Shown here: positions 21,637-64,000 of the stretch, in pieces
How the letters are laid out: each line of letters starts with the position of its first letter
How positions within the stretch are numbered: the first letter of the stretch is position 1
NCBI GenBank assembly: GCA_038049695.1
Contig: CP142454.1
Location: 87,008,501-87,072,500 of the forward strand
Length of the DNA stretch: 64,000 bases
Direction of reading: 5' to 3'
Origin: Cinnamomum chago
Lineage: Eukaryota > Streptophyta > Magnoliopsida > Laurales > Lauraceae
The notes under the pieces: model-generated
Databases searched by the model: none
Told to the model about the DNA's origin: nothing
Seen by the model: only the letters and a program-made list of their open reading frames with translations
Made by a program: the position numbers and the translations under genes

Positions 21637-21735
21637 TTTTAACCGATCCTACATTACTTTAACTTGGCTCATATAGGATACTCATTCTCATTCATTTCTA
21701 TTGATTTTTTTATTTTCTACTATCACCAGCAAAAC
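21637..21735 (+). repeat. Left copy of a direct repeat flanking the 21.7-28.3 kb element stack
   Basis: About 95 bp starting ttttaaccgatcctacatta. It recurs in direct orientation at 28386-28470 with small indels. It is too long for a target-site duplication and suggests a local duplication around the insertion. Confidence 0.75.
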
Positions 21736-21741
21736 AAAAAA

Positions 21742-23468
21742 AGGGGGCATTAGGCGACAAGTCCCTGAACATGTCACTTTATTGTCTTACGTCCACAATC
21801 TTTTTTCATAGTGTGATAAGTCTTTTTTTCAAATTTGAAGACATAAGATGTTTAATTTACCCTTTCTTCAAAATCATATCTCATTATTAGTGAGATATGC
21901 CATTAATAATGGTCAACTATCATTTAATTAGCCAAGTAAATTTCAAAAGATCCAAATAAATTTCAAAAAATGTAAATAAATTTCAAAAAACGAAAATAAA
22001 ATAAAATAACCAAATAAATCCGAAAAATACAAATAAATTCGAAAGAACGCAAATAAAATTCAAAAAATGCAATAATTTCAAAAAACGCAATAAATTTCAA
22101 AAGAAGGCAGGGAAATTTAAAAAGACGCAAATAAATCTCAAAAGATCCAAATAAGTTTCAAAAAATATAAATAAATTTGAAAAGATGAAAATCAATTTAA
22201 AAAGACGCAAATAAATTTCAAAAGATCCAAATATATTTCAAAAAATATAAATAAATTTCAAAAGATGAAAATCAATTTCAAAAAGTGTAAATAAATTTCA
22301 AAGGATGCAAATAAAATTAAAAAACACAAATAAATTTTTAAAAAAATGCAAATACATTTGCCACAACTAAGATAACTCAATTTTTCAAATTTCAGAAAAA
22401 TTTGCCAAAAACTAAAGTGTTTTTGCTAAAATTCAGTTAAATTTATTTTTAAAAAATACAAATAAATTTTAAAAGAACAGCCTGAGTTTAGTTCAAAAAC
22501 TCAATTAAAATTTTCCAAATGGAGATAAACTTGTTAGAAAGTCAACTATATTTTTCGAAAACTAAAATAAATTTTCCAAAACTCAGATAGATTTGTTCAG
22601 AACTCGGATAAATTTATTTCAGAACTCAAATAAATTTGCCAAAAATTTAGATAGATTTGTTCAGAACTCAGATAAATTTTTCCAGAACTCAGATATATTT
22701 GTTCCGGAAGTCAGATAAATAGCCAAAAACTCATATAGATTTGTACAGAACTCAGATAAATTTGTCCAGAAGTCAGATAAATAGCCAAAAACTCAGATAG
22801 ATTTGTCCAAAACTCAAATAAATTTGACAAAAAATACAGAACTCAAATAAATTTGACTTTTGAAACTAGTCAGGCTTGACCTGACCTGGACCAACTCGGA
22901 ATCAAACCCAGCCCAAATCATTGTCTTCTTCCCCAACAGAATATGGGTTTCCTCTTCATGTTCTCTGCGACATTCTGGAACCAGAACCATAAACCTCTCC
23001 CGGTTTGCTTCTTCTTCCACAGCAACGGCGCGGCGTGGCAGTGGCGGCGGAGAACTTCCTTCTCCAACGACGCACAACGGCGACCTCGACGATCTGTTTT
23101 CTGTTCACGGCTGTTCACGGCAATGTGGGGCCCAGCCGGACACAAATCCCAAACCGTTGTCTGCTTCTTCTTCTGCAACCTTTTCTCTATGACAAAAGAA
23201 AACTCCGGCGATGGCACGTCCTGATTCTTCTTCCCAGGCAATGGCAGCGGATGGCGGCGATCACCAAGCGATTATTCCTTCTTCTTGTTGTGTTTGGACG
23301 CTGCAACATGACTCAAACAGAGCCGCCCCTTCTTCACTATTTTTCTGCAACACGAAGATCTTCTTTCTCTTAACGAGAGAACAGTAGCCCTCTAACAGAT
23401 CTATCGATCTTCGCATCTCTTCTTCTTCTCCGATCAACCCTCTGATACGAGTCTCCGGTACTGTGCAG
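21742..23468 (+). mobile_element. AT-repeat element copy 1, left part (possibly Mutator-like)
   Basis: It begins gggggcattaggcgacaag and is followed by ~20-bp degenerate units of the type caaataaatttcaaaagat (21925-22350), then units of the type ctcagataaatttgtccag (22550-22860). The same order of parts occurs at 48638-49760. A GC-richer stretch follows (22870-23460), then the hAT insertion. The element resumes at 28098 and seems to end near 28270, where the inverted complement of its start (tccctgaa) is found. Weak inverted ends and an acquired-looking core suggest a MULE-like, non-autonomous element, but no transposase is present. Confidence 0.5.
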
Positions 23469-44836: not shown

Positions 44837-46940
44837 CTTCTGTGTAGTAAGTAATAAATGTAATTTACTTTCGGCCTTGGAAGACAAGGCTGTCTCTGAA
44901 GCGTGGAAGTTGGCTTTTCAAGTGACTTTGTATGTCACTTTTAATAAATGGGATGGAGACTGCAATCTGATGACTGCAATCTGATCACTGCAATATTTTT
45001 CTGGCAAGGCACACGTGGTTGAGAATTTAGTGAAAAATGAAATTTGTAAATTAGGAGGTCTTCAGCAAGGGTCAACAAAAGGGGGAGAAAAAGTACCAAG
45101 GCTGAAAAAACTCCATTTCTTATTGAAAGATGCTCCAAATTAACAAGGTCATGTGCACATTTACCCCTCCTTAAAAGAGGAAGGAAGAAATTTTTTATAC
45201 GACATTGGAAGGAAAGGGTTGGCTTTACTATTTCCTGGATTTGCTTCTTCCACTTAAGTTGTAAAAACTGAACATGGGGAAGATAAAATTAATTAAATTT
45301 TAACAGGATGGATTGCTGCCTCTGAATGGACTCCTTACTGCAACACAATACCAGGATTGAATGTAAAAGAGGAATGCTTATTGAGGTCAGGAAAAATAAA
45401 AAAAAACATAAGAATGTAGTTCAGAATAATGGCAGTTTTTAAGGGGGTTTTGACAGAGAAGACTACAGGCCCGTCACCTGGAGCTGGATTTGAGCTGAGT
45501 TCATATGCCATGATGTTGGACATGGTTCTAGAACAGGATATCCTTCCAGATGTAAATATCTAAGAGAATAGAATGCAAAGATGGTGATGATGGAGTTTCA
45601 ATACACGTTTTATGTTTCTGGCTGAATGCAAAATTGGTAACACGCCCATGGCCATGGTGAGAGGACTTGGTTTTGGCCGGGTTTTAAAGCCATGGTCTGG
45701 TGCTGGACTAATATGCTGCTCTCAGCTCTAATTTCAGGCCCAATGGATTTTCTTGAATATTATCATGGTCTAGCATCAATAGCGCCCTATTTCATTTTAA
45801 TGGGACCTGTATTAGATTGAATCAATAAATGGGCTGCACATGGATAAGCCTTGGCCAGTCGTCTTTGCAAAATGCAACATTGCTGCAATGATTTGAAAGT
45901 GGATTTAGTGACGCTATCATGGCTTAGCATCTGTTTCTCAGCCTCATTACTTCCAAAATGATGCCAAAAAAAAATGAAAAATAGAGGAAAATCCAGCAAG
46001 GTTAATCACCCACAAGAGAAGAATCCAAGCTATATTATCAATAAACTCAGATTAAATCCATAAAAATACAGCCCTCAAGGACTGTTTTCTGCATTACAGA
46101 ATCTTTAATGAATAAAAGGCTAAAACAAGACAAGCCGCAGTACTGCTCACACATACACAACAGTTCTACCTAGTGCTTCAAACTCCATAAGCTTCTAAAG
46201 AAACTTTTCTAAATGATTCTAGACAGATTTTCTCTAATCATACTATGATTAGTATTGCTAAATAAATATAATGACTCATTGAGAAGAAGCTCCAAATCAG
46301 GAAAATCTGACTTGTATTGGGCGTCACATGTGGATTGTGGACTCACACACCTTGCATTTTCTTGAAACATTTTATTTTGGTTGAAGTTAGGCTTATGGGC
46401 GACCATAATGGTGCAATTAAGGCCCAGTCAATTCAATCCCCAAAACAGCCTGTTTGCTGTATTTTTCTGCAACAGGATTTCTTTATTTACACAGCACACC
46501 CTTATGTAGTTGCAGAGTTTTCGAACAGCGCCTTTAAGTAATATTTTTATTTTCCAGGGCTGCTTTGGTTCCTTCTGCCTATATGAACTATTCACACAAA
46601 TGATGCCCAAATACGGATATAGATAAAGACACTAATATGGGGATTAGGAATACAATTCATCACTTTTGAAATTTAGGACAAGGGGAATACAATTCATCAC
46701 TTTTGAAATTTAGGACAAGGATATGGATACGGGTGACCTAATTTTTTCTTTAGATCACTTTCGAATCAATGAAATTATCATTGTTTTCGTCTTTTTCTAG
46801 CTTTTTTTTTAAAAGAATCATCATATGAAATAAAGGACTGTATAAGAGTATGATATGTTAACCTTGTTCCCTAAAAATATTAGTGTAGTATCTAGTACCA
46901 ATACAAGTGTCATATCAGGTACTAATTACAACTTTATAAG
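44837..46940. other. Spacer after citrate synthase
   Basis: The 3' UTR presumably occupies the first few hundred bases. A perfect tandem pair of 37 bp (ggaatacaattcatcacttt...) lies at 46646-46719. No other gene was seen. Confidence 0.45.
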
Positions 46941-47850
46941 CGCCATGGCATCTTCCCACATTTGATGATGTTATTCCATGCGTCATATCTAAAGCTCCCA
47001 CACTGCTTTATTATGCATAATAAAGAAAAAAGAATGCAATAAAAGAGGTAAATTGCAAAGTATATTTCACAGTGCAGACCTGCTCACTTTGGTTGCAACC
47101 ACCATTGAAAAATTTCATCCATTCAATTTAAAAACAATTTCTCCTTAATGATAGAGTAATGGCCATATGTTCTTGCTATAATTTCTTTTCAAATGTACAA
47201 GCTACATCCATTTGCACACAAATGATTAGTTCACAAGGGTTGTTTGTAGCTTCATCCCTCTATGATCAACTTCTAGATAAACAGCCTAAGATCGGCAAAT
47301 TGCACTATTGATTGATGCAGTATTCTAACAATCTATTCTTTTAGCTACCATGGACATGATAGAATAGGAGCAATGTATGGGGTTATGAGGTTATGGGGAT
47401 CCATGTTGAGTATCAAATGAAAATGGGAGTCTCTAAATGACCTTTTTTCTTTTTCTTTAAACACAAGATTGATTGAAGTATGTAGTTTAGTTTTGCTAGA
47501 TGATTCTGTTATCAGTTAGAGGCTTCATCTATAAATAATTTGTTGATGAAGTCATAGGGAGTTGAGGGGGAATAATACCCTGCCAGAAGCACGTTCAATA
47601 AGATTGTAGCTCCAACTGCAAGACCAACAAGTTCTCCTATCTGCAATTGCCATCAGAAGGGAACAAAACAAAGTTTCTTAGTAGTTGCAACAAGAGAGGA
47701 GCTCTCCATTCCCATCCCTCCATGGGAAAATCAAAATCCTCTTCTATGGAGGAAAATCTGTTCAATTTTCTCCCTTTTCCGCATTGAAAATATGTCGCAT
47801 AAAACAACAGAATAATGGGTCGCACGGAAAACTAGAATAATTTTCCTCTC
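46941..47850 (-). repeat. NIP inverted duplication, minus copy
   Basis: On the minus strand this segment matches 56325-63178 of the plus strand, except where the plus copy holds two insertions and where this copy lacks the last NIP exon. It keeps single, unduplicated target sites for both insertions (attgttag near 47310; caaccc near 47240). Homology stops at 46941/63178 on the outer side. Confidence 0.9.
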
Positions 47851-48422
47851 TATTGGGGAATCCTCTCTTTGGCCAAATGCACCCCAAAAGTCCTAAAAAT
47901 AATCCTAGAAATTTGTTACATATTTTGACCCTAATAATTGAAACAGTTAAATGATCTTTCCTAGTAACTTTTTTGAGATGTTGAGAAGTAAAGCTTTTAA
48001 CTGATCAGTTATAGTGACATTCAAGTTGGTGCAAAATTAGGTGAATCCCATCCAAGAGGCCAGCTGACTTAATGAAGATTCACATTTGTATCCATCTATT
48101 GGACTGAATGGTAAAGAGAATTTCTATACTATAGATCAGTTCGCACTGATTGTAATCTGGTCATCTAACCCAAACCAATGGCCTATTTTATAACGATAAT
48201 AAAAACTCTAGAGATTCTGCTTCAAAATGGACTTACCGCTCTGTTATCGGAGATGACAAACATGAGATAGAAAGTGATGATGAACTCAAGCACCAGGGAT
48301 TGCAGGTTTGATCCAGAAGGAATGGTTCCTGGGAAATGCTCATGCATTCCATCGAATAACAAGCGAAGCGTTCCACTTGCAAGGGTTGCACCCAACATCG
48401 AAGCTGAGAGATAAACTGGTAC
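47579..48422 (-). pseudogene. NIP: NIP aquaporin, two internal exons, last exon lost
   Basis: Exon 48422-48237 encodes VPVYLSASMLGATLASGTLR through TFYLMFVISDNRA (62 residues). Exon 47640-47579 encodes IGELVGLAVGATILLNVLLA plus a split Gly. Both have good AG/GT borders. They are the middle of a nodulin-26-like intrinsic protein, a membrane channel for small solutes such as glycerol, boric or silicic acid. Compared with the family pattern VISGVATDNRA, four residues (GVAT) are missing. The exon with the second NPA motif should follow near 47.35 kb. There the plus copy has about 250 bp that this copy has lost. No upstream exons (first NPA) were found, so the gene is a remnant. Confidence 0.8.
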
Positions 48423-48637
48423 CTGTAGAACAATCATAAAGAATTGATTACATGTCTCAGAAAGGGAGAGAACCAACGACCCAAACATAGTTCAATGGAT
48501 CTATTAAATGGTTATATGGTCATAGTTCTGTACAGCTAGAAAAGTAAGGATTCATTAGCACTGGATAGATGGATAAGAAGGAAATAATACTACAATCTAG
48601 AGAAAGGGCAGATGATTTATTGTCATGGAAAAAAATA

Positions 48638-49760
48638 GGGGAATTTGGCGATGGGTCCCTGAACATTTAACTTTATCGCCTTAGATCCACAATTTTTTTT
48701 CATAGTGTGATAGGTCATTTTTTTTTTCAAATTTGAAGACCTAATATGTCTAATTTACCATTTCTTCAAAATCATAGCTCACGAATAGTGGGATATGCCA
48801 TTAATAATGATCAACTACCATTTAATTGACCAAGTAAATCTCAAAAGATCCAAATAAATTTAAAAAAATGTAAATTTTTTTTCAAAAGACGTAAATAAAA
48901 TTAAAAACGAATATAAATTCTAAAAAAACACAAACAACTTTCAAAAAATACAAATAAATTCGAAAGAATGCAAATAAATTTCAAAAAATGCAATAATTTT
49001 AAAAAACGCAATAAATTTAAAAAGATCCAAATAAATATAAATAAATTGCAAAAGATGAAAATCAATTTAAAAAGATGCAAATAAATTTCAAAAGATCCAA
49101 ATAAATTTATAAAAACATAAATAAATTTCAAAAGATCCAAATAAATTTTAAAAAATGTAAATAAATTTCAAAAGACACAAATAAATTTCAAAAGACGTAA
49201 ATAAGATTAAAAAAAGCAAATAAAATTAAAAAAACGTAAATACATTTGCCAAAACTAAGATAAACCAATTTTCCAAATTTCAAAAAAGTTTGCAAAAAAC
49301 TCAAGTATTTTTTCCAAAACTCAGTTAAATTTATTTAAAAAAATATAAATAAATTTCAAAAGAATAGCCTGAGTTTAGTTCAAAAACTCAGTTAAATTTT
49401 GCCAAATGGAGATAAATTTGTCAGGAACTCTGTTATATTTTTCAAAAACTTAAATAAATTTGCCAAAAACTCAGATAGATTTATCCAGAACTCAGATAGA
49501 TTTGTTTCAGAACTCAGATAAATTAGCCAAAAACTCAGATAGATTTGTCCAAAACTCAGAGAAACTTTTTTCAGAACTCAGATAAATTTCCGCAAAACTA
49601 AAATAAATTTGAAAAAAAAAGAAAAACTAAGATAAATATGATAGAAACTCATATAAATTTGTTAAAGCTCAGATAAACTTGACAAAAACTTAGATAAATT
49701 TCATAAAAACTCAGATAAATTTCATAAAAACTCATAGATTTGTCAAAAACAATATAACAA
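48638..49760 (+). mobile_element. AT-repeat element copy 2 (possibly Mutator-like)
   Basis: It begins ggggaatttggcgatgggtc, closely matching the start of the 21742 copy. The same two arrays of degenerate ~20-bp units follow (48830-49250 and 49380-49745). It sits just upstream of the NIP minus copy's first preserved exon, inside what was an intron. It continues into a GC-richer core and the palindrome. Confidence 0.55.
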
Positions 49761-50327
49761 CCATGTTGCCTTCTTTCTCTGGCGATCGCGCAACACGTCG
49801 ACTACGTTCGACAAGGACAGAAAAACTACAGTGGCGGCTACAACAAGACCGGCATGCCTTCTTCCTTCCATTTTCGCTGCCAAAGTCTGACAAAATCTCT
49901 CAAGTAGATGAAAAATCCGACCTTTCTGGTTAGATCGGAGGGTGGAAGCAGCGTCAAAATTTGGTTTTCGGCATAGGAAGCGATGACGATTTGATCGAAA
50001 GAAGAGGGAATTTGGGTTTTGAGCAGAACAGAGAGTGAAAGAAGAAGAAAGCATGCGTTGATGGGTTTGATTGGGCTTGATTGGCCTTCTTAAAATTGAG
50101 ATTCAATTCTACCTACAGGAGCCAGTGGGCACCATACATGTGGCTCCTTAGATTTTTGTGGATGGGTGGGGCCATAGCAGAAACCTAGAGCCCATTTCAA
50201 ATTGACCCTCAATCCGGAAGGGAGGTTCTTTTCAGTTAAAGAACAGGCATATAAGGGAGTTGATTTCTTCTTAAACACCATCCACAAAAATTTATTGGGG
50301 GCATTTTGTCATATTTTGGCAGCGGAA

Positions 50328-50450
50328 ATGGGAGGGATGATGTCGTCAATGGCGGCGAAGTTCACCTTCTTCCCGTCGGATCCGCCGTCGTACAAGCATG
50401 CCGTCGACGAGTGTATGTGGGGGCGGGGACCACTCGAAGAGGCCGCATGA
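50328..50450 (+). pseudogene. Captured ABHD17-like first exon, left palindrome arm
   Basis: It starts MGGMMSSMAAKFTFFPSDPP and continues SYKHAVDECMW before losing the frame seen in the other arm because of an extra G. The opening M-G-G-x-x-S-S-M-A-A-K-F-x-F-F-P is the N-terminus of plant ABHD17-type alpha/beta-hydrolases (putative depalmitoylases). No downstream exons are present. Confidence 0.6.
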
Positions 50451-51031
50451 TATCATCATCATTGTGGAAGAAAAACCCAAGCCATAAAATCCTAACCCAA
50501 CCCTAATTCATCCAAACACAGGAAAGTACAGATTCATGAAAGAGAGGAAGGAAGAGGAAACAGAAGAAGAAAGAGGGGGGTTTTGGGGTGTTTTACAGGT
50601 TTCTGTGTGCAGCTACTCCCATCAGACGAGTCACGAGACTGAAAGAGGAATGGGGTGAAGAAGAAGAGGGATAAACCAAGATTTGAAATTTGATATTTCA
50701 AAATTTTATGCCTAAAAATAGTTGAAAGGGTAAATCAGTCATGAAAAATTTTGAAATCTCTAGACACAATTTTCATGACTGATTTACCCTTTCAACTGTT
50801 TTTAGGCATAAAATTTTGAAATCTAAAACTTCAAATCTTGGTTTATCCCTCTTCTTCTTCACCCCATTCCTATCTCAGTGATCTCGTGACTCGTCTGATG
50901 GGAGAAGCTGCACACAGAAACCTATAAAACACCCCAAAACCCCCTCTTTCTTCTTTTGTTTCCTCTTCCTTTCTGTCTATCATGAATCCGTACTTTCCTA
51001 GGTTTGGATGAATTAGGATAGGGTTAGGATT

Positions 51032-51190
51032 TTATGGCTTGGGTTTTTCTTCCACAATGATGATGATATCACGCGGCCTCTTCGGGTGGTCCCCGCCCCA
51101 CATACACTCGTCGACGGCATGCTTGTACGACTGCGGATCCGGCGGAAAGAAGGTGAACTTCGCCGCCATCGACGACGTCATCCCTCCCAT
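51032..51190 (-). pseudogene. Captured ABHD17-like first exon, right palindrome arm
   Basis: A 52-residue open frame on the minus strand: MGGMTSSMAAKFTFFPPDPQ, then SYKHAVDECMWGGDHPKRPR and DIIIIVEEKPKP before a stop. The first ~28 residues match the ABHD17-type N-terminus; the rest does not. The frame is open here while its mirror copy has drifted. It is a gene fragment, not a full enzyme, which would be several times longer. Confidence 0.55.
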
Positions 51191-51380
51191 TTCCGTTGCC
51201 AGAATCTGACCAAATGCCCCAATAAATTTTTGTGGATGGTGTTTAAGAAGAAGTCAACTCCCTTATATGCCCGTTCTTTAACTGAGAAGAGCCTCCCTTC
51301 TGGATTGAGGGTCAATTTGAAATGAGCTCTAGGTTTCGGCTATGGCCCCATCCATCCACAGAAATCCAAGGAGCCACATG

Positions 51381-53080
51381 TGTAAGGCCCCAATTCTGGA
51401 TACCGAGAAAACCGTCAAGATATCCGAAGTTGCACGCTACTTCCCGAAAAATCCGAGAACTTCCAAGATCATAGGTCCGCAGTGAGGTCCAATTTAAAAC
51501 TTTTTAAACGATATAAGATCAACGGTTAATATTGCGGAAGCATGTGAATATATCGGAAGCAATGATAAGGTATCATAAGTCTGTAACAAATATAGCAGGG
51601 CTGAAATCCAGCCAAAAGTGTCAAAGTTATAAAGGATTATTACAAATTGTAACAATTACCCTGCTCACTACAAAAATCTCTCAAAATCCCAAAATAATAA
51701 AGAACTCTCACACCCCAGGTGCCGGCTCTCCAACTTCCAACTCGACCTCATGGTTTGCTGGTCCCCATCCGTAGTCCCCTACTACGGGTGCCTCAACTAG
51801 CGCGAGCGCGTCGTTCTTGGAATTGGGGTCGAAACCTAAGCACCAAGAATGGATTAGATCTAAAGATCTGACAAGTCACAGTATACAAGTAACATAGGAT
51901 ATATGTATTAAAAGAGTAAAGACAATTATATAGTTTAAGAGAATATCAAGATACATGATCTAGGCAGTTAAACAAAATAAGCATTTAGAATCAGGATAAA
52001 CATAATATCTAATCTATCACAATATGACACATTCACACGAGCTGGATACCGCGGGATATTATGCCGCAGCCCTCCCATACTGGACACAGTCACTGCGGGG
52101 AATCTCACAAGTGTTGGGGAATGACTAGCCCCGCAAATCACACTCAACAGTCTCACCACACTCATCACTCGGGGAGACTGGACTCGGCATCACACCGTCC
52201 GTCTAGAACATAGCTCATCGTGATAGCTCACTCAACACTCATAAATAGCTCATACCAGTGATAATCAGTCCAAAGGCTGAGCTTAGTACAACAGAGTGAA
52301 TGTCTATGCCGACTCAAGGAAACAATAAAGTTCTGCGTCTGTCTAGGCTTTGCCTTGCTTGAACAAGGTCTCTAAGAGGTCAAAACATCAATTCAGTCCA
52401 TGAATCACAATCCAAGTCCAAGTCCACCCGTTGGATCCATACCAAGGCCCATCAGATACATGGCCTGGTCTGAAACAGTCCAAACGAGGTAACAAGTCCA
52501 TTTCCATTAATAAACAATTTATTCTCATCCACAATGAGTTATAAGTCCAATATAATTCACCTCTCCAATCTAAGGATAACACATTCATGCATAGGCCATA
52601 AAAGGGCCCGCCTAGCCACAAACACGGGTTAGTGTTCACCCAATCACATCACCAGGTCACCTCGAAGTAGTCCTAGCTCTAGGTCATCCATTTTCCATTT
52701 AATTAACAGTTATAAGCTATAGTAAGGACATAAGAGTGACAGTAATATGATAAGTGAAGTAAGAACTCCAAATACAAGAATCAACAGGGAAATATCAATA
52801 ATCCAACCTAGGTAATGATCCACATTCGGGTCCAGGTTCATCTCAGGTAATTCGATCTCTAAATGGAGTCTCAGATGTCAATGGATACTGTGTTTGGTGC
52901 TCCAGAAGTTAAGGGCATCATTAACAACGTTTAACGATCGAATCATCGTAGAATATACAACCAAGACCCTACTTGGTGGTCCCCACGAGTCAAGGTTGAG
53001 CCACACCATTGACTCGGGCTTAGCGCATCAATAGAAGTCCACTTGGATGGTCAATGGGCCCTACAAACGATCACAACCTC
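51381..53080. mobile_element. LTR-element fossil piece
   Basis: It starts TGTAAGGCCCC at the very end of the palindrome arm, as an LTR would. It continues as non-coding DNA with regulatory-region character. No protein-coding part was found, so the superfamily is uncertain (Ty3-like is a guess). It is broken. The inner border with the copia fossil was not resolved. Confidence 0.35.
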
Positions 53081-56000
53081 AAAATGTGAAAATTGGAAAA
53101 TCATTGAATGCAGTGTTCTCGGTCGACCCGACACAGGGCTCGGTCGACCGAGTACACTGGTCTGTCAAGATTTTGACTCCCAGGTTGACCTCCGTGCAGT
53201 GTGTTCGGTCGACCTCCTGGCCTGGTCGGTCGACCGAGTGCTCTGGAAATATGGGGTCAAGCACCTGGCAGGCAATGCCTTCATCTCAGGAATTCTATGT
53301 GTGTCCGGTCGACCTCCTGGTCTGGACGGTCGACCGCACATACTAAAAACCTGCAGAAATTGGATGTCCTAGCTCTCAGCATTCACACTGATATCCCTGT
53401 GTTGTTGGTCGATCGAGTACATGGTCGGGTCGACTGAGAACACAGGATGTCTGTGTCTGAGGGAAAGTCCAGCTCTCAGTTATTTCTTAAAAATCCTGTG
53501 TGCTCGGTCGACCTGGGACAGGTTTTGAAGGTTCCCCTAGTGACAAGAAGAATAGTTTTCAAATATCTACTAAGAGTCTCCACAAACCTATAGTTGAGAG
53601 AGATTATATCCCTAAATGGACTTGTCATTTTTGCAACCGTAGTGGACATTTGGTCCCTAATTACCCATACAAAATTAGGCTGTCTCTAAAAAATCCCTCT
53701 AGAATACCTTTCAAATTTGTCCCCAAGTCCATTCCCTGTAAATCTCCTTTATCTAGTTAGATGGTAAAAGGAACAAACTTTGAGAGTCTCCTAGTTCAAA
53801 CCGCTTTAAAAGCAAAGGAAAATCCTACCTGGTTCTTAGATAGTGGTTGTTCAAAACACATGACAGGAGACCGATCTAGATTCAGCTCTATAGTGGAATA
53901 TGATGGAGGAAGTGTTTCTTTTGGGGATAATAGTAAAGCTCAAATCATTGGCAAGGGAAGTGTAAAAGGAGATCAAATACCAACTCTAAATGATGTATTT
54001 CTTGTGGAAGGATTGAAACATAATCTTCTTAGCATTAGCCAATTATGTGACAAAGGAAACAAGGTAGTCTTTGACAGTCAATCATGCAAAATGGTAAATG
54101 ATAAAATCCATCAAGTTATTCTTACTGGATCAAGGACAAAAGGAAACATTTACATTATAGAAGAATGTGATGACAATGAATCTAGGTGCTTGATAACTAA
54201 AGATCAAGAGAATTACTTATAGCACCAAAGGATGGGTCACATAAATTTTAAATTGATTAAAACCTTATCGAAGAATGAAATTGTGAAAGGAATTCCCAAA
54301 TTAAGTGATGAAAAAAGCTGAACTCTATAAGGCTTGCAAAATGGGTAAACAAATCAAGAAGAGCTTCAAAGGTTTAAAGGATATATCATCTTCCCGTCCT
54401 CTTGAATTAATCCACATGGACTTGATTGGACTTGCACCAGTGCAAAGTATTGGAGGAAAGAAGTTTATTTTGGTTATGGTAGACAATTATTCTCGTTTTG
54501 GATGGGTTGCTTTTCTTCATGCTAAATCGGATGCTGTAGACAATATCATAAGAATTTGCAATAAGATACAAGTAGAAAAGGATTGTAAAATTCAGAAGAT
54601 TAGAAGTGATCATGGGGGAGAGTTTGAAAATGAAAAATTTGCTAAATTTTGTGAGAGTCATGGAATCAATCATGAATATTTTGCTCCTAAAACTCATCAA
54701 CATAATGGAGTGGTTGAAAGGAGAAATAGAGTTATTCAAGAAATGGCCAGGACCATGCTTAATGAAAAGAATCTCTCTCATAATCTATGGGCTAAAACTG
54801 TGAATACTGCTTGTTATCTCATAAACAGAGTCTATCTCACTAAGAATACCAACCAAACTCCCTACGAACTTTATTTTGAAGGAAAACCTAATTTGGGGTA
54901 TTTGAAAGTGTTTGGAAGCAAATGTTATATTCTAAGAGATAGGGAGCAGTTGGAGAAATTTGAGCCAAAACCTGATGAAGGAATTTTCCTAGGCTATTCT
55001 GAAAGGAGCAAAGCATACAGAGTATTTAATCATAGAACCATGACCATAATGGAGTCAGCTCATGTTGTCATTGATGACACAAATCAAATTGGAAGAATTC
55101 TAGAAGATGATGATGAAGCTGAAATTGATATTGAATAACCTATTCCAAAAGATAGTAATGATATCATTCCATCCAAAGCCATTGTTCCAACAAAATTAAT
55201 GAAAAATCACACCTTGGATAATATTATTGGAGATATCAGCAGTGGGGTTATGGCCCGGAAACAAGTTTAAAATCTATGTGCTCATTACTCCTTTGTCTCT
55301 TAAATCGAGCCCAAGAATTTTTCTGAGGCTGAATCAAAATCTGAATGGATGGAAGCTATGTAAGAAGAATTGAATCAATGTAAGAAAAATGATGTTTGGG
55401 ATCTTGTTCCATTACCTGCAGAGAAAAATCCCGTTGGCACTAAGTGGATTTTCAAGAACAAGTCAGATGAATCTGGAAATGTTGTGACAAACAAGGCAAG
55501 ACTAGTATCAAAACGATATGCTCAAATAGAAGGAATTGATTTTGAAGAAACTTTTGCTCCTGTAGCCCGTTTGGAGTCCATAAGAATCCTATTGAGTTAT
55601 GCGAGTAGCATGAGAATCAAACTATTTCAGATGGATGTCAAAAGTGCCTTCTTGAATGGAGAAATTGAAGAAGATGTTTATGTTACTCAACCAGAAGGCT
55701 TTGAAGACTCTCACCATCCTGAGTATGTATACAAACTCAAGAAAGCTCTCTATGGATTAAAACAAGCACCACGGGCTTGGTATGAAAAGCTTACAAATCA
55801 TCTGATTGAAAATGATTTTGACTGTGGGAAAGTTGATGAGACCCTGTTTATCAAGAAAATTGATCAAGACATTCTTGTAGCTCAAATCTATGTTGATGAT
55901 ATAGTGTTTGGATCTACTTCAAAGAAACTAGCTCAAGGATTTTTAGAATTGATGAGTTCCACTTTTGAGATGAGTCTGGTCGGTCCCCTGCAATTCTTCC

Positions 56001-56318
56001 TAGGACTTCAAGTTAATCAAACTGAGAAAGGGATTTTTCTTAGCCAGCCCAAATTTGCCTTACAAATCATTAAGAAGTTTGGTTCAGAAAACTCTAAGTC
56101 TAGTTGCAAGCCCATGGCTTCTACTTCAAAACTCTTTAGTGACCCAGGTGGTGTTAAAGTAGACCAAAAACTCTACCGTAGTATGATAGGAAGTCTTCTC
56201 TACCTCACAGCTAGTAGACCGGATCTATCCTTTATTGTTGGAATTTGTGCTAGGTATCAATCAGATCCTCGTGAGTCCCATTTTAAAGCTGTCAAACGTA
56301 TCATCAAATATGTCATAG
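53081..56318 (+). mobile_element. Ty1/copia fossil, SIRE-like lineage
   Basis: Parts in order on the plus strand: a region rich in the palindromic word cggtcgaccg (53110-53520), a gag-type zinc-knuckle region (about 53620-53690), aspartic protease and pre-integrase (about 53760-54220), integrase core (about 54305-55140), and reverse transcriptase (about 55370-56310). The order protease-integrase-RT defines Ty1/copia. The residue style of the RT resembles SIRE/Maximus. It is broken, with several breaks, and clear LTRs were not recognised at either end. It abuts the NIP intron sequence at 56319. It looks old enough to be inactive but still easily recognised. Confidence 0.85.
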
Positions 56319-56528
56319 AGAGAATTTTTTTTTCTGGTTTCCGTGCGACCCATTATTTTGTTGTTTTATGTGACATATTTTCAATGAGGAAAAGGGAGAA
56401 AATTGAACTGATTTTCCTCGATAGAAAATGATTTTGATTTTCCCATGGGAGGGATAGGAATGTAGAGCTCCTCTCTTATTGTAATTACTAAGAAACTTTG
56501 TTTTGTTCCCTTTTGATGGCAATTGCAG

Positions 56529-57023
56529 GTAGGAGAAATTGCTGGTGTTGCAGTTGGAGCTACGATCGAATTGAACTTGCTTCTGGTTGGATATTATTCC
56601 CCTCAACTCCCTATAACTTCATCAACAAATTATCTATAGATGAAGCCTCTAACTGATAAGAGATTCATCTAGCAATACTAAACTATATACTTCAATCAAT
56701 CTTGTGTTTAAAGAAATAGAAAAAAGTCATTTAGAGACTTCCATTTTTCATTTGATTCTCAACATGGATCCTCATAACAACATGCATTTGTCTTTTGACA
56801 GTCCAATATCTGGGCGTCGATGAATCCAGCAAGGAGCTTGGGGCCCGCGATCGTGGCCAGCCGTTACGAGAGCATATGGGTGTATGTTGCGGGGCCTATA
56901 TGTGGGGCGGTGTCGGGCGCATGGGCCTACAACCTCATCAGGTTCACCAACAAGCCCTTGCGTGAAATCACCAAGACTGGTTCTTTCTTGAAAAGCATAA
57001 GAAGTGGCTCACAGTTGAATTAA
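56529..57023 (+). pseudogene. NIP: NIP aquaporin, last two exons
   Basis: Exon 56529-56590 encodes VGEIAGVAVGATIELNLLLV plus Gly, the partner of the minus-copy exon. Exon 56802-57023 encodes the second-NPA exon, ASMNPARSLGPAIV, through WVYVAGPICGAVSGAWAYNL to the tail SIRSGSQLN and a stop. Together they give the C-terminal half of an NIP channel. Two lesions are visible against the family and the sister copy. The donor after the first exon reads AT instead of GT, and one base is missing in the PISGASMNPA stretch. Upstream exons are absent, replaced by the copia fossil. It is a pseudogene, although the last exon still reads cleanly. Confidence 0.85.
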
Positions 57024-57080
57024 ACTTAAGAATGGCTCGTACTCTATCATGTCCATGGTAGCTAAAAGATAGATTGTTAG

Positions 57081-57144
57081 CTAGGCCGGTTCAAGACAAT
57101 TTGAGGCCTAAAGCAACAATTTTAAATGTGGCCTCAAATTATCT

Positions 57145-57176
<32 letters not shown>

Positions 57177-57959
57177 TAAGTTTGGAGTATCTGGATTCGT
57201 ATTTTCTAATATATACATTTATCATTTAGAAATTATAACTAATAATATTTATAAATCAAACGAACACTAACTATAATAAACATACAATACGAGCATGGAA
57301 TTAAAAAAAATCTTAAAATCATAAAATAATAGAACCTGATTTAGTGATTTATCATTATTGACCACAAAGATTGTAGATGTAGATGAATTTCAAATTTTAT
57401 CCAGCCTTTTCATTATGAAAAAAATGGATTATATTTGAGTTAGTGGGTTATGATTAACATATGTTATAAAAAAGACTCACATATATTATCAGAATATATC
57501 CACATATTATTAAAAAGAAGACAAAACCAGATCAATAAATCTTTAAAGAAGATTGCTTTAGAAATAAAAAAAGTAATTATAGAGAAAGACAATCTATGAG
57601 AGAGACAGGGTGAGAGAGTAAGGAGTATGTGAGATGGAAAAGTGTTGGTGGAGAAACGTTCATTTGAAAAACCTCACTGGTGAGGTGGCAAGGAGGTTGG
57701 GTTGGGATTTATTGGGATTTAAAAAGACACTGTATAGAGGAAAAGAATGATGACACTAGTTTTAATGCTTTGTTTAAATGTGAAAAGATAGCTTTAATAG
57801 GATGGAATACTAATTACTATTATGGGGCCTTGGGAGAAAAAAAATTATGACAGTTGCTTGAATGCTTTTTTAGAATTTGAAAAAATGATTTTATGGGGCC
57901 TTATTTTTTGGGAGGCGTAAAGCCAGGGCTTTTCTTTCCCAATGGTCGAGTCACCCCTA
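57081..57959 (+). mobile_element. Non-autonomous hAT in the NIP 3' region, empty site known
   Basis: The 879-bp insert is flanked by attgttag (57073-57080 and 57960-57967). The sister NIP copy has a single attgttag with no insert, so the borders are proven within the window. The ends are CTAGGCCGGTTCAAGAC and GGTCGAGTCACCCCTA (imperfect inverted repeats), and ggcct/taaagc words lie near both ends. No transposase is present. It inserted after the NIP duplication. Confidence 0.88.
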
Positions 57960-58083
57960 ATTGTTAGAATACTGCATCAATCAACAGTGCAATTTGTTGA
58001 TCTTTGGCTGTTTATCTAGAAGTTGATCATAGAGGGATGAAGCTACTAACAACCTGTGACGTTTTGATTATTATATATATATA

Positions 58084-58237
58084 GGGAGGTGAATCTGTGA
58101 GAGCATCTTTCACCTTATTATAAGAGATAAGAGTGTGGGCCCTCACATTTAGGTTATTGGCATTGGATATGGATGTGAGTGCCCCTCACCTTATCTCTCA
58201 TAGTAAGGTGAGAGATGCTCTCATAGGAGCATCTCCC
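58084..58237. mobile_element. MITE with ~50-bp inverted ends
   Basis: The left end GGGAGGTGAATCTGTGAGAG is mirrored by the right end (gctctcataggagcatctccc), and the arms continue through caccttat...agagataag. It is inserted in a TATATA run, so a TA-rich target is likely (PIF/Harbinger or Tc1-type cannot be separated). Confidence 0.8.
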
Positions 58238-58257
58238 ATATATATATTTATATATAT

Positions 58258-58644
58258 GGGCAAGGCTCTCCTAAGCTTAAACTTAAGATAAAATTCAATA
58301 AGCTCATGCTTGTAAGGCCCATGCTTGATCCATCCAAATGAACCATACACACGATCCCCCTGAATTGCATATGTCCACCAACTTTCGGTCAGATTTGAAT
58401 TTATTGGACCGTTGGATCGATTGTGTACTAATCCAAATGGACTGTTAACCATTAAACTTTTAGGACCAGATGGAGATTATAGAGACCACGATTGAGGCTG
58501 ATTTTTTTCAAATAGGAGGGTCCTAGGGAGTCCTTAAAATCCCCCCATCCCCATCCCTATGTGGGTCCCCAGGTGGGCCCCACCACACAATTGAGCTTAC
58601 CTAAGCTTACTTTATCCTAAGCTTCAGCTTAGGAGAGCTGACCC
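58258..58644. mobile_element. Second MITE, different family
   Basis: The ends GGGCAAGGCTCTCCTAAGCT and (reverse) GGGTCAGCTCTCCTAAGCTG form inverted repeats of about 35 bp. It is flanked by the same TATATA-type sequence. The 387-bp body is non-coding. Confidence 0.8.
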
Positions 58645-58679
58645 TATATATATAAATTATATTATTATTATTATGATGT

Positions 58680-60740
58680 AATTGATTGTGTTTTAGTTAA
58701 ATACGTGATTAGTCCAAGTGGGGCCCACGTTAGGCTTAGGTTTCGTGAGTTAGGCTTGTTGGATAGGTGTCTTGACCCATAGTTAACCCGGGCCCAGTTT
58801 AGTTGGTATAATTCTTCTCCAACCAAGACTCTTATCTATTTGGAACCTAAAGTCTATTCTTTTTATAATTTAAGTCATATTACAACTCCGATTCTCATTC
58901 CCTATTTATACAACACCACCACTCTTTTATTTTCACACACAACTTTCTCTCTTACAACTTTTCTCTGGGATATCACTTGGGTTTTGGCAATAGGAATTCT
59001 AGACTGTCTGTGTTCCTCATTGATTCATGTGTGGATGCATGTAGAAACCCTTTGATGCCCTTTTTCATTAGATAATGTGGTTATGCGATTTTGTTTTGCA
59101 ATGAAATCGGAGATTTGGGGTGTTAGGTTTTTGTTTGTTGCTAATTTGATGGATTCACGATCACTTTCACTGTCAAATGATCACACACTCATGCATCTTA
59201 GTTTGACTTTAGAATCTAAGTTTCTAACTTGCATTTGCATTTAATTTTCAAATGATTTAATCATGCATGTTTTAGAACTTAAATGCACCTTTGAAAACCT
59301 AGTTCTTCGTGCATAGTTTTGGAAAATCGAGTTAGATATCTAGGTTAGTGATTTGCATACATTCCTCATTTTTAGAATTTTGTTATTATGCTTAAATCAC
59401 ACTGGCCATGATTTTCAAGGTTCACCTTTGGAAAGTTGCAATTTCTGCAGGAACTCATCCCAGGCCAGTTTACTCGGTCGGCTGACCCTTGCACCCGGTT
59501 GACCGAGCCAACTAGTCGTTGGGCATCTTGGGCAGAATACGCGGTCGACCGAGCCCTATCCAGGTTGACCGGGGAACTAGCCATTGGGCCAATATAGCCG
59601 TTGGGCCAGCTCGACCTGAGGGTCATGGGCTCGACCGAGCCAACTAGCTGTTGGATTGTTTTTTCTATAAAAGTCCATTTCATTCCCTTCTTTCAAGAGG
59701 CTTGTTTAGTGAAACTCTTGAACCATATTGAAGCCTAAGAAAGAGGAATAAGCTGAGAAAGCTAGAGGGCTATTGGAAATTAAAATGTTTGAGATTTAAA
59801 GGTATATCTTTCAAGTTAAAGTTGATTTCCATTCCATTTAAATTCCATGCATGTTTAACTCTTTGTAACTTCATACTTGCATGATTTCTAGCTTTAATTG
59901 AGTTGTTTTGCAATCACCAAACCACTTATTCATATTAGATTGTTTTGCAAACACTCTTGTCTCAATCACATGTGTTTTAATCTTTAAACTTCATACAACT
60001 TGTGTAGTATGTCTTTCAAAGTTGTTTTGAATATTTCATGTGATTAGCTTATCACTTCAATCATCTATTTCTGTACTTAGATTTTCAAATGCATCAAGCA
60101 TTCATTTAAGAGCTTCATTTTAGAAATTGATTGAAGTAAACATTCATACACTTTGAGCACACACCTTAGCTATTTGTTTGTGTATGTTTGTATCATGTTT
60201 TAAACTTTCATATCAGCCTATTTAAGAGGCAAATGTATTGAGCTTAAATTGTATCTCCTTGAGTGTTTGTGTAGACACTACTTTGAGAGAAATCTTTTTT
60301 ATTGTATAGGTTATTGCTTAGCCTAAGAAAAACACACTGTAGAGGTTATTGCTTAGCCTTGGAAAAGCATCTTGTAAAGGTTATTGCTTAGCCTAGAAAA
60401 ACACATTGATAGGTTGTTGTTTAGCCTAGAAAAACATCGTTGATAAGGTTATTGCTTAGCCTTTTGAAAAGCATAAATAGTGAAAATCGGTGGGGGTGTT
60501 GGTTCACAAGCCGATAGTGGATGTAGGAATTGAGGCCGAACCACTATAAATCTTTGTGTGATGGTGTATGCTTGTGGTGATTGCTTTTGTAAGCTTCCGC
60601 ATTTTATTTGATAATCACCACTAGTGGCTAGTTAATTTAAAAGAAATTAAAATTGGGCTTAATTGGTCACTAACTTATAGCTCACCCTATTCACCCCCTT
60701 CTAGGGTTAGGATGCCGGACTTTCATGGGGATGACTCAAT
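58680..60740 (+). mobile_element. Copia-like LTR region nested in the 58-63 kb insertion
   Basis: It contains cggtcgaccg-type words (59470-59640) like those at 53.1-53.5 kb, a TATA-like ctataaaag (59667-59675), and a tandem array of gttattgcttagcct units. It closes with the attcaccccct-tctaggg stretch typical of some plant copia LTR ends. The borders are approximate. Fossil. Confidence 0.45.
60299..60480 (+). repeat. Tandem array, ~36-bp unit, five units
   Basis: Units of the form aggttattgcttagcc(t)a(a)gaaaaacac..., decaying towards the right. It lies inside the copia-like LTR region. Confidence 0.8.
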
Positions 60741-63178
60741 CGATTTTCTCATATTGATACTACTTTTGCATTGTTTCAAGCTGCTATTGCCCACAACACT
60801 TTTGTTTGGATTTCAAAATCCTTTTTCAACTTATATGATTATGTAGATTTGTGTATGAAGGTAGATGGATTACCCATTGAAAACCAGGGAGGACCGGATC
60901 TTGTAACAGGCTCCCGGACTTGGAGCCGTGAGGAATTGTACCCGTGTGTTGGACTGTGGGGGCCTAGGTGGGCCACCCGATGACCGATTGATCTGTGGAT
61001 CCGGAGGAGGACCCATGGGCGACCTTACAGGCGTGGACCTGTTAGGTGGGCCCCATTTATTCCCCATCGAGCACCTTGATCAGAGAGAGGGCGTGTTTGA
61101 GGAAGAAAAATTGTTTGGTTGTCAGGCCATTGTGGGAGGTCATGATCAGTGGGGCCCACTATCCTAGCACTCTTGCTACATCAGGCGAGAAACTCAAGTT
61201 TTGGAAGAAGTTCTGTAACATGCGTTGTCAGGAAGAAGGGAATGTGGAATCAGTCGCCTGAGGGTGTATGGAATGTGTGGACCTCACTTATGTTATAGAA
61301 CTTAGAGTTCTATTAAATTTCTTACCATGCCCCTTGAGTTTTTGGAAATTAGGAAAAAGACCCTGGTTGTCTTATAAACCCAAATTAGACCATTTGACTT
61401 ATTATAAAGGTGGAAAAATATTTTGGTTGGAGTCCTTAGTTTTTCTAAAATTATAGACTAAGATTGTTATTTCTTATTATTATTTGCAAATTAATTTTGA
61501 ATGGTATCTTTGATTTTTATTGTGTTAAAATCATATTTGTGTACCTTATTAATCGGATCATTGGACCTGAGAAAATACCGTCTGGGCACATGATATCTTA
61601 CCAATGTGGGGTTTAGTACCTGGTATGACCTCGGGGAAATCCTAGTGGATTCGAGCTCAACCCATCTTTATTGGAAAACCCTCAATTGGGTCTATGTACC
61701 ATTGATTGTGAAGGGATGCATTGATCTTTTATCTATTTAGAGATTCATGTGGTTGTTGGGTACGAGACCTTATGCTTGACCTTAGGCTTGACTTGTGATT
61801 ATTCTTTGACCTTCGGGTTTGCACTTTGCATACATGACTGAGATTGATGTTGATTTATTAGTTGCATACCCTATGTTGATTGGATATGGACCGTGATGTG
61901 GCTTGGCAATTGATTGAAATAATGTAGAGGTTTATTTGAATGATTTGATTGGTATTCAATTGTGGATTATTATGCAGCCAGTCCTTCACTTTAACTTAGG
62001 TTTCTGTGTCAGAGTATTACTGGTCACTAGGTCTATTCTACTATGATATGTATATATATATGTACATCGATTGGGTCATATTCGATCAACTACAGTTGTA
62101 ATTGGACGACTGATCACCGATGTGTGCGGACACTGTAATATCCGAATTGATTTTGAACCGGTTTATCCGGCCTACGATTACGAACCGGTTTATGACCGCC
62201 GGCCTTTGAACGGATTTTCTCGCTTTACTAAGGCTAACTACCCAAAACAGTAGCATTGCTTCTATGTGTTTATTGTATTGCTCTATTGTGTAGATTCGGA
62301 TATAGGTTATACGTTCTTTTCGTCATTATCGTGTTATTCTGTTATGATGATTACCTGATTTACTTACCTTGATCTTGTATTTTATTTATAAATTTTGCTT
62401 TTTTGCTTGCTGTTTACCTTGTTTATTGGTGCATAGGTACCGATCCCTACTTTGCCGTGGATACAGATGAGGTTCAAACGTTTCAAGCGTTGGAGCCAAT
62501 TGTTGAACCCAAGTGGAGAGCCGGAGATGGCTACGGAGTTGTCTGAGTCCGCACGAGAGTGACTTTCATCATAGAGACTATTTTAGTAGCAAATTATTCA
62601 CAATGAACCTAATTTTATTTAGTTGTTTTGTTTAGGTTATTTTGGAAACTTTAACCTTAAATATTTAGTTGGTTTTGTGTTGGTTTGGATTTTGGATTTT
62701 GGATATTGATACCAATTGATTTAATGCTTTCGCAAAGAGTTTATTATGACTCACCATGTTTCAAAATTTTTTGGGTTTAAATTTGGGAGCTTGTGTTGCA
62801 TTAAACATAGGAAAATGAATGTTTATTTTTATTTCTCACATTATATATTGGTTGTATTTTGGGGACGTGACACAACCCTTTGAACTAATCATTTGTGTGC
62901 AAATGGATGTAGCTTGCATATTTGAAAAGAAATTATAGCAAGTACATATGGCCATTACTCTATCATTAAGGAGAAATCGTCTTTAAATTGAATCGATGAA
63001 ATTGTCCAATGGTGGTTGTGACCAAAGAGAGCAGGTCTGCACTATGAAATATACTTTGCAAGTTACCTCTTTTATTGCATTCTTTTCTTCTTTATCATGG
63101 ATAATAAAGCAAGTGGGAGCTTTAGATATGATGCATAGAATAACATCATCAAATGTGGGAAGATGCAATGGCGCTTTA

Positions 63179-64000
63179 GGCTCACTTTGCACTTTGCCAA
63201 AAGTGTATTGAGGGGGGCCTTCTTATTATAACTAGTGGCCCTACATTTAAGTCGAATCAAACTGGTTGTTATCTTAGCCATATTGTGTGACCCCTAATCA
63301 GTGACCATTGTGGCACATGTCCTTTCGGTTCAATCCAACCAAAGCCTAAGCCTCTAGTCCGTTGAACCAAAGCCCAAGTCTATGTGCTTATGATACCTGA
63401 ATATTTGTACGCGCCCAAAGTATATGTATCGATCGGACAGTGTCAGATTGCAGCTAACTGAGACATGTCCTCTGCCCGATCGATCTGACAGTTGATTGTC
63501 ACCCCGAAATTTGGGCTTTTTGCAACTTCTTCCCCAAGCCATTCCAAGGCTAAACCTGTGAAAATGAGCCTCCATTCTCCCCATTCATCACATAAACATT
63601 CAAAACAATAGAAACACTTCTATCACCATCCATCCATCATCAATCCGGGCCATTGATCTTCCAAATGAGCAAAAACCCATCCATCAATGGCCAAACTCCA
63701 TGAAAACAACCTCGAAGGTAGATCTAATCATTTCTAGCATAATATGAATAAAATTTTAGAATAAAAAATAGTAAACATGCATTCTATGCTAAGTGAGTAT
63801 ATTGCACTTGCCTCAAATCCGAATTTGCAAATGTAATGAGCAAAAAGAAGCAATCCAAGCTATCCAAACCTCTAATGGCCTTCTCACACCCAAACCAATC
63901 CAATCTACCAAACCTAACGCCCATTCCACAAGAAAATAGCTACTTAGAAAAGGAAATCTAAAGAGAAAGGAAATCATACAAAATCACATGGAAATTGAAC
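63179..64000. other. Terminal spacer
   Basis: Beyond the end of NIP-duplication homology. Contains short CA-rich tracts and no recognisable gene. Confidence 0.4.

Follow-up and report, generated by a model that had tools for sequence, protein, structure and literature searches.

The locus and its features

The window, the whole stretch of 64,000 nucleotides that was analysed (C4:87008501-87072500), was compared with the Cinnamomum chago genome (1.06 Gb searched), and its features of interest are collected in Table 1. At the locus, an element carrying a large inverted repeat lies within an aquaporin intron, the gene being presumably of the NIP type. An alignment of the two arms of the repeat spans 615 columns, of which 571 are identical, 38 mismatched and 6 gapped (92.8% identity by blastn); the left arm as a query matches the right arm at E 1.6e-259, far above chance, and a spacer of 22 nt separates them. 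As such, the near-perfect palindrome with almost no spacer described in the initial annotation of this DNA is upheld, as are its reports of an ABHD17-like gene start in each arm and of one open and one drifted frame. The open frame, of 52 residues, lies on the minus strand of the right arm, and its left-arm counterpart stops after 40 residues following a one-base shift; about the first 28 codons of the 52-residue frame belong to the ABHD17-type gene and the remainder is antisense ABCB leader. The 7% drift between the arms likewise agrees with the earlier view that they are old and have diverged without being removed.

Table 1. Positions of the features discussed, counted from the first letter of the window
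Feature	Position	Strand	Basis or remark
Exon of aquaporin (MIP) gene copy, host of the insertion	48222..48488	-	Pfam MIP E 1.6e-07, profile 85-147
Putative left copy of 9-bp target-site duplication	48629..48637	.	flush with left end
What remains of the non-autonomous MULE-like element (left end, array and captured fragments; right terminus missing)	48638..50747	+	colinear with C6 copy L009
Family-typical tandem array, 20-21 bp units	48831..49750	+	also in other family copies
Captured ABHD17-type 5' leader/start region, gene sense minus	49864..50049	-	91% to C5:33008361-33008546
Fragment homologous to C1:41065131-41065344	50078..50296	+	86%; source not settled
Left arm	50136..50747	+	arm-arm alignment
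Captured ABHD17-type leader and ~28 codons	50305..50410	+	90% to C5:33008516-33008621
Captured ABCB transporter gene 5' leader and start codon	50402..50658	-	86% to C2:77660831
Right subterminal repeat of transposon family	50650..50747	+	genome matches; extends beyond 50747 in relatives
Probable 15-bp templated insert	50745..50759	+	exact copy of 50810-50824
Palindrome centre (spacer)	50748..50769	.	32-bp pattern across centre unique in genome
Right arm, inverted copy	50770..51381	-	arm-arm alignment
Copia-type retroelement, 3' side cut off	51381..56316	+	flush with right-arm end; Pol_BBD, rve, RVT_2

The aquaporin gene has two paralogues in tandem, R1 and R2, at distances of ~52 and ~100 kb on the right, and in both the insertion site is unoccupied. 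In R1, the exons that encode the start of the protein are found past the insertion site; this first-exon stretch matches R2 and has no third copy within 184 kb around the window, and therefore the 5' part of the window's own gene copy seems to have been lost. The local aquaporin cluster comprises C4:87055438, 87106835 and 87154658 together with an inverted copy at 87064829-87071676, the latter (window 56312-63411) being fragmented by several insertions.

On its other side, the palindrome is truncated. Of 2928 candidates the best 40 were scored, and among these the matches to L042 and L043, two copies of a highly repeated element, start at 51381 and 51382; the match to L042 extends through a Copia-type pol region to ~56314, where the inverted aquaporin sequence starts, and L043 matches over the first 2.1 kb only. 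The right boundary given earlier for the palindrome is thus to be read as the point where the right arm stops at the start of a Copia-type element, 51381, and any right-arm sequence past this point is gone.

The arms as a patchwork of gene fragments

A genome search with the left arm, in which the best 40 of 1216 candidates were scored and counts are accordingly lower bounds, returned at least 41 matches among those listed. Five of these are near full length (the arm itself, the right arm, C6:23147051, C2:57441900 and C2:57452825), three cover a single fragment (C2:77660831, C1:41065190 and C5:33008516), and the other 33 of the 41 consist only of a ~98-bp repeat at the inner end of the arm. 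Read inwards, the arm is made up of a C1-homologous fragment, an ABHD17-type leader with ~28 codons, an antisense ABCB leader with its start codon, and the family repeat. The first of these fragments also matches C2:99182932 and C3:46245657 at 88-89% over 146 bp.

The search for a full ABHD17-like parent, proposed with the initial annotation, led to an apparently intact gene at C5:33008516, which has the same 5' leader and start as the arms, followed by introns and more exons. Its joined exons score above the cut-off for Hydrolase_4 and Abhydrolase_1 in Pfam and have four weak PDB matches, none bearing the name ABHD17; that name, taken from the annotation, is our presumption. At C2:77660831, similarly, lies the 5' portion of an ABC transporter B gene, which we take to be ABCB6/20, its exon having matched B chains of ABC transporters (best E 2.2e-08). 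Against Pfam, single exons of the ABHD17-type and ABCB genes gave no match.

Left of the arm lies a second, reversed ABHD17-type leader piece, followed by a short ABCB piece at ~50050-50085 (by eye). The ABHD17-type 5' end is thus present twice in the element, head to head and with ~31 bp of parent overlap, as if a fold-back switch had taken part in the capture itself. The description of a captured exon therefore holds as far as a gene start was captured, but this start is one among several fragments inside a transposon. Elsewhere in the genome, C3:71980595, C8:19874110, C8:20117365 and C8:20193763 each have an ABHD17-type leader piece beside an oppositely oriented family piece, and are perhaps further gene-carrying copies of the family.

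A gene-capturing transposon family

Other family copies have the same left terminus (~48638 in the window), a tandem array built of 20-21 bp units, and the right repeat; the C6 copy (L009) is colinear with the window from the left end through 50747. In the test for target-site duplications, end references were aligned to 13 loci, three of which (L009, L010 and L011) fell below the score; among the 10 loci reported, both ends were located in six and no left end in four. Flanking duplications in the six two-ended copies were a perfect 9 bp in three, 8 of 9 bases in one and none in two. As a control, left flanks were crossed with other copies' right flanks, giving 9/9 in 1/30 pairs and 8/9 in 6/30, and because the flanks are A/T-rich an 8/9 match is worthless as evidence of duplication, whereas the perfect duplications in half of the copies stand out. 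In the C6 copy a 9-bp duplication is visible by eye, with one base doubtful at the right end. The window element keeps only its left target-site flank, the right copy being lost, and this flank agrees with the unoccupied site in R1 and R2 at 7/9 bases.

The duplications fall within the 9-11 bp given for MULEs in the available part of the source (PMC3310237), and the element holds ABHD17-type and ABCB fragments whose parent loci were located, as Pack-MULEs do. Long terminal inverted repeats were sought in three copies, and in 3/3 the best end-to-end local match was within the range of shuffles. Among the best 150 of 3015 PF10551 candidates, inspection by eye placed no transposase inside a family copy; two listed matches lie near a family end, C7:39729943 (2.3 kb) and C6:71493204 (7.8 kb), and in both cases the orientation puts the match outside that end. 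Taken together, these sequence features make it most likely that the element is a non-autonomous, gene-capturing, Mutator-like transposon, a Pack-MULE of the non-TIR kind. As regards its extent, the palindrome is real, yet it is part of a transposon that begins some way to its left, and from its composition it reads as the broken right half of that transposon and not as a simple gene palindrome. Another family copy in the window, at 21733-22957, has the same left end and tandem array, with homology stopping at ~22957.

Relatives of the arms

The patchwork occurs in three relatives, one on C6 and two on C2, as a single copy with no mirror arm among the matches listed. In an alignment of both arms with these relatives (580 ungapped columns), eight sites group the left with the right arm, and one site each conflicts by grouping the right arm with C6, the left arm with C6 and the right arm with C2a. 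The arms are 93.6% identical to each other and the right arm is 93.5% identical to C6; because the arm-arm value hardly exceeds the other, sisterhood of the arms has few sites to rest on and might be mimicked by gene conversion. That the arms are sisters, closer to each other than to the relatives, is supported by the alignment but not certain.

The age of the arms raises a further point. Their difference of 6.4% is greater than the 4.2% between the host gene copy and the unoccupied paralogue R1, which would be surprising in a later event unless mutation was faster in the arms. An excess of C-to-T among private changes, as a scar of methylation, showed no clear enrichment at counts too small to judge by (13/21 in the left arm, 5/10 in the right arm and 6/13 in C6).

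The centre and a proposed origin

The family repeat runs beyond 50747 in the relatives, with 120 bp to the terminus in C6, and these last 120 bp of the element are absent from the window. At the centre, AAAATTTTGAAATCT is an exact copy of 50810-50824. A 15-bp match was reached in 0/2000 plain shuffles (longest 14), in 0/20000 further ones and in 4/20000 dinucleotide shuffles; in real arm windows 15 was reached in 0/565 and 14 in 16/565 overlapping windows. The insert is A/T-rich and matches of 14 also arise in some shuffles; copying from a template is likely but unproven. Judged by eye, at the centre the right arm extends ~10-16 bp further, in family sequence, than the left. The 32-bp pattern over the centre was found at one genome locus at up to three mismatches. 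The idea of a mobile palindrome was accordingly rejected, the genome-wide search for its centre having led to this single locus.

The best explanation, to which we give a probability of roughly 0.68, is that a broken gene-capturing transposon was folded back by template switching during repair. A non-autonomous transposon carrying captured gene pieces would have inserted into the intron of the tandemly repeated aquaporin gene, and a DNA break would then have occurred ~120 bp inside its right end. Repair would have proceeded via microhomology-guided template switching, the copying strand exiting the element after GTCATGAAAA, copying 15 bp (AAAATTTTGAAATCT) of the opposite strand, slipping back and then continuing along the opposite strand over 612 bp or more. 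The outcome would be an inverted duplication and the loss of the element's terminus; later, the Copia element would have interrupted the right arm, with loss of the sequence beyond, and the arms would have diverged to 93%. Of this account, the patchwork, the single-arm relatives, the missing terminus, the unique centre and the Copia truncation are observed, whereas the break, its cause and the order of copying are what we infer.

A possible but distinctly less probable origin is that two separate Pack-MULE copies inserted head to head and that later deletions took both right termini. The abundance of the transposon family would fit such a history, as would a right arm almost as near to C6 as to the left arm. 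However, eight sites group the arms as opposed to one and one for the arm-C6 pairings, the probable templated insert lies at the centre, and the patchwork is found at only three other loci among the 41 listed matches.

A fold-back of the broken transposon must also be weighed against a far larger event, an inverted duplication with the palindrome as its core that would take in the aquaporin gene, whose fragments are mirrored at 46938-47840 and 56329-63176. The inverted matches on the two sides are colinear, share the axis of the palindrome and have 91-93% identity, but over 849 columns the inverted fragment is an outlier with 40 private sites, and informative sites join the window copy with R1 eight times, with R2 four times and with the inverted fragment twice. 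Moreover, no other mirrored sequence was found in 47841-50135 at E 1e-8. With the inverted piece an outlier to the left copy and to both paralogues, this larger duplication was dropped as improbable. An assembly artefact is still less credible, for although fold-back (chimeric) reads do produce palindromes with short centres, the arms of such artefacts are near identical, and here 38 sites and 6 gap columns of the 615 differ, a drift of 7% that argues against this origin, and the arms end in different neighbours.

Hairpin potential and silencing targets

As the initial annotation anticipated, a transcript across the centre would form a long hairpin: the predicted RNA folds end to end over the entire region at -1077 kcal/mol, a figure without a shuffle control at such length. 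Its proposal that the ABHD17-type parent would be silenced fared less well, since the left arm matches that gene perfectly over just 24 nt and the right arm over 22 nt, and others match better. Perfect 21-mer stretches to the ABHD17-type parent occur only at 50317-50340 and 51174-51195; those to the ABCB gene are at 50557-50579, 50919-50955 and 51069-51106, and those to the C1 locus at 50157-50187 and 51352-51380. Other family copies share three to 11 perfect 21-mers per arm in 7/7 tested. With so few perfect 21-mers, the ABHD17-type gene makes a poorer target than either the ABCB gene or the family of transposons, whose shared subterminal repeat has at least 33 copies among the matches listed and 1216 first-look candidates. 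If the locus is transcribed, the likeliest effect, judging from these matches, would be a hairpin giving rise to siRNAs that act on the transposon family, and perhaps on the ABCB gene as well.

That selection has kept the locus as a hairpin gene silencing the ABHD17-type parent is highly implausible: the predicted fold is near perfect and the parent gene is present, but the perfect matches to it are the two short ones above and the Copia element interrupts the right arm at 51381.

Comparison with known systems

The known system that comes closest is maize Mu killer (Muk), which, in the part of the account available, is an inverted duplication in a broken Mutator-type element that duplicates part of mudrA and its TIR and silences MuDR, a long hairpin RNA of ~4 kb having been proposed (PMC3440606). 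The same partial account reports that plants with Muk silencing have short antisense transcripts unable to form a large hairpin, and the long hairpin is therefore disputed even for Muk; the centre of Muk, moreover, resisted amplification and sequencing (PMC3440606). Both are inverted duplications inside a Mutator-type element, so far as the window element is a MULE, but compared with this description of Muk the window locus carries a subterminal repeat together with the 5' ends of host genes, and its silencing role is putative. A natural locus of the Mu killer kind, whose hairpin RNA would silence related transposons via the subterminal repeat and tune the ABCB gene via its start-codon region, is by this analogy conceivable, if rather improbable.

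Pack-MULEs, as far as the excerpt describes them, are likewise non-autonomous and carry several captured gene fragments (PMC3310237), whereas in the window family no terminal inverted repeat was found in the three copies examined, and the palindrome lies within the captured part. Closer in this respect are the non-TIR MULEs, the grapevine families and Arabidopsis VANDAL, for which the text at hand describes mobility without recognisable TIRs and 9-nt target duplications (PMC2528002); the window family resembles this description in structure, but no transposase or VANC gene was linked to it in this analysis. VANDAL VANC proteins bind short motifs in non-coding regions, according to a partly available report (PMC13317346), and by analogy the A/T-rich 20-21 bp arrays near the left end may be a VANC-like target. 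In the birth model for plant MIR genes, as outlined in the available portion of its source, inverted copies of a founder gene are able to fold (PMC10004981). Foldable inverted copies of a gene piece are found here as well, but the pieces at the window locus came via a transposon. The palindrome centre of the window is at one locus only, and a likeness to Tm1 of root-knot nematodes, reportedly a Mutator/Foldback family, Mutator-type with a fold-back structure, is drawn by title alone.

A literature search for palindromic or inverted-duplicated Pack-MULEs found none described in the titles or abstract openings of the papers listed. The parts of the locus are thus of known kinds, and what is new is the combination of captured host gene starts with a readable centre. 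It offers an old inverted duplication that is readable across its centre, may preserve a trace of its formation and has single-arm relatives within this genome, and if transcribed it would connect transposon control with captured pieces of host genes.
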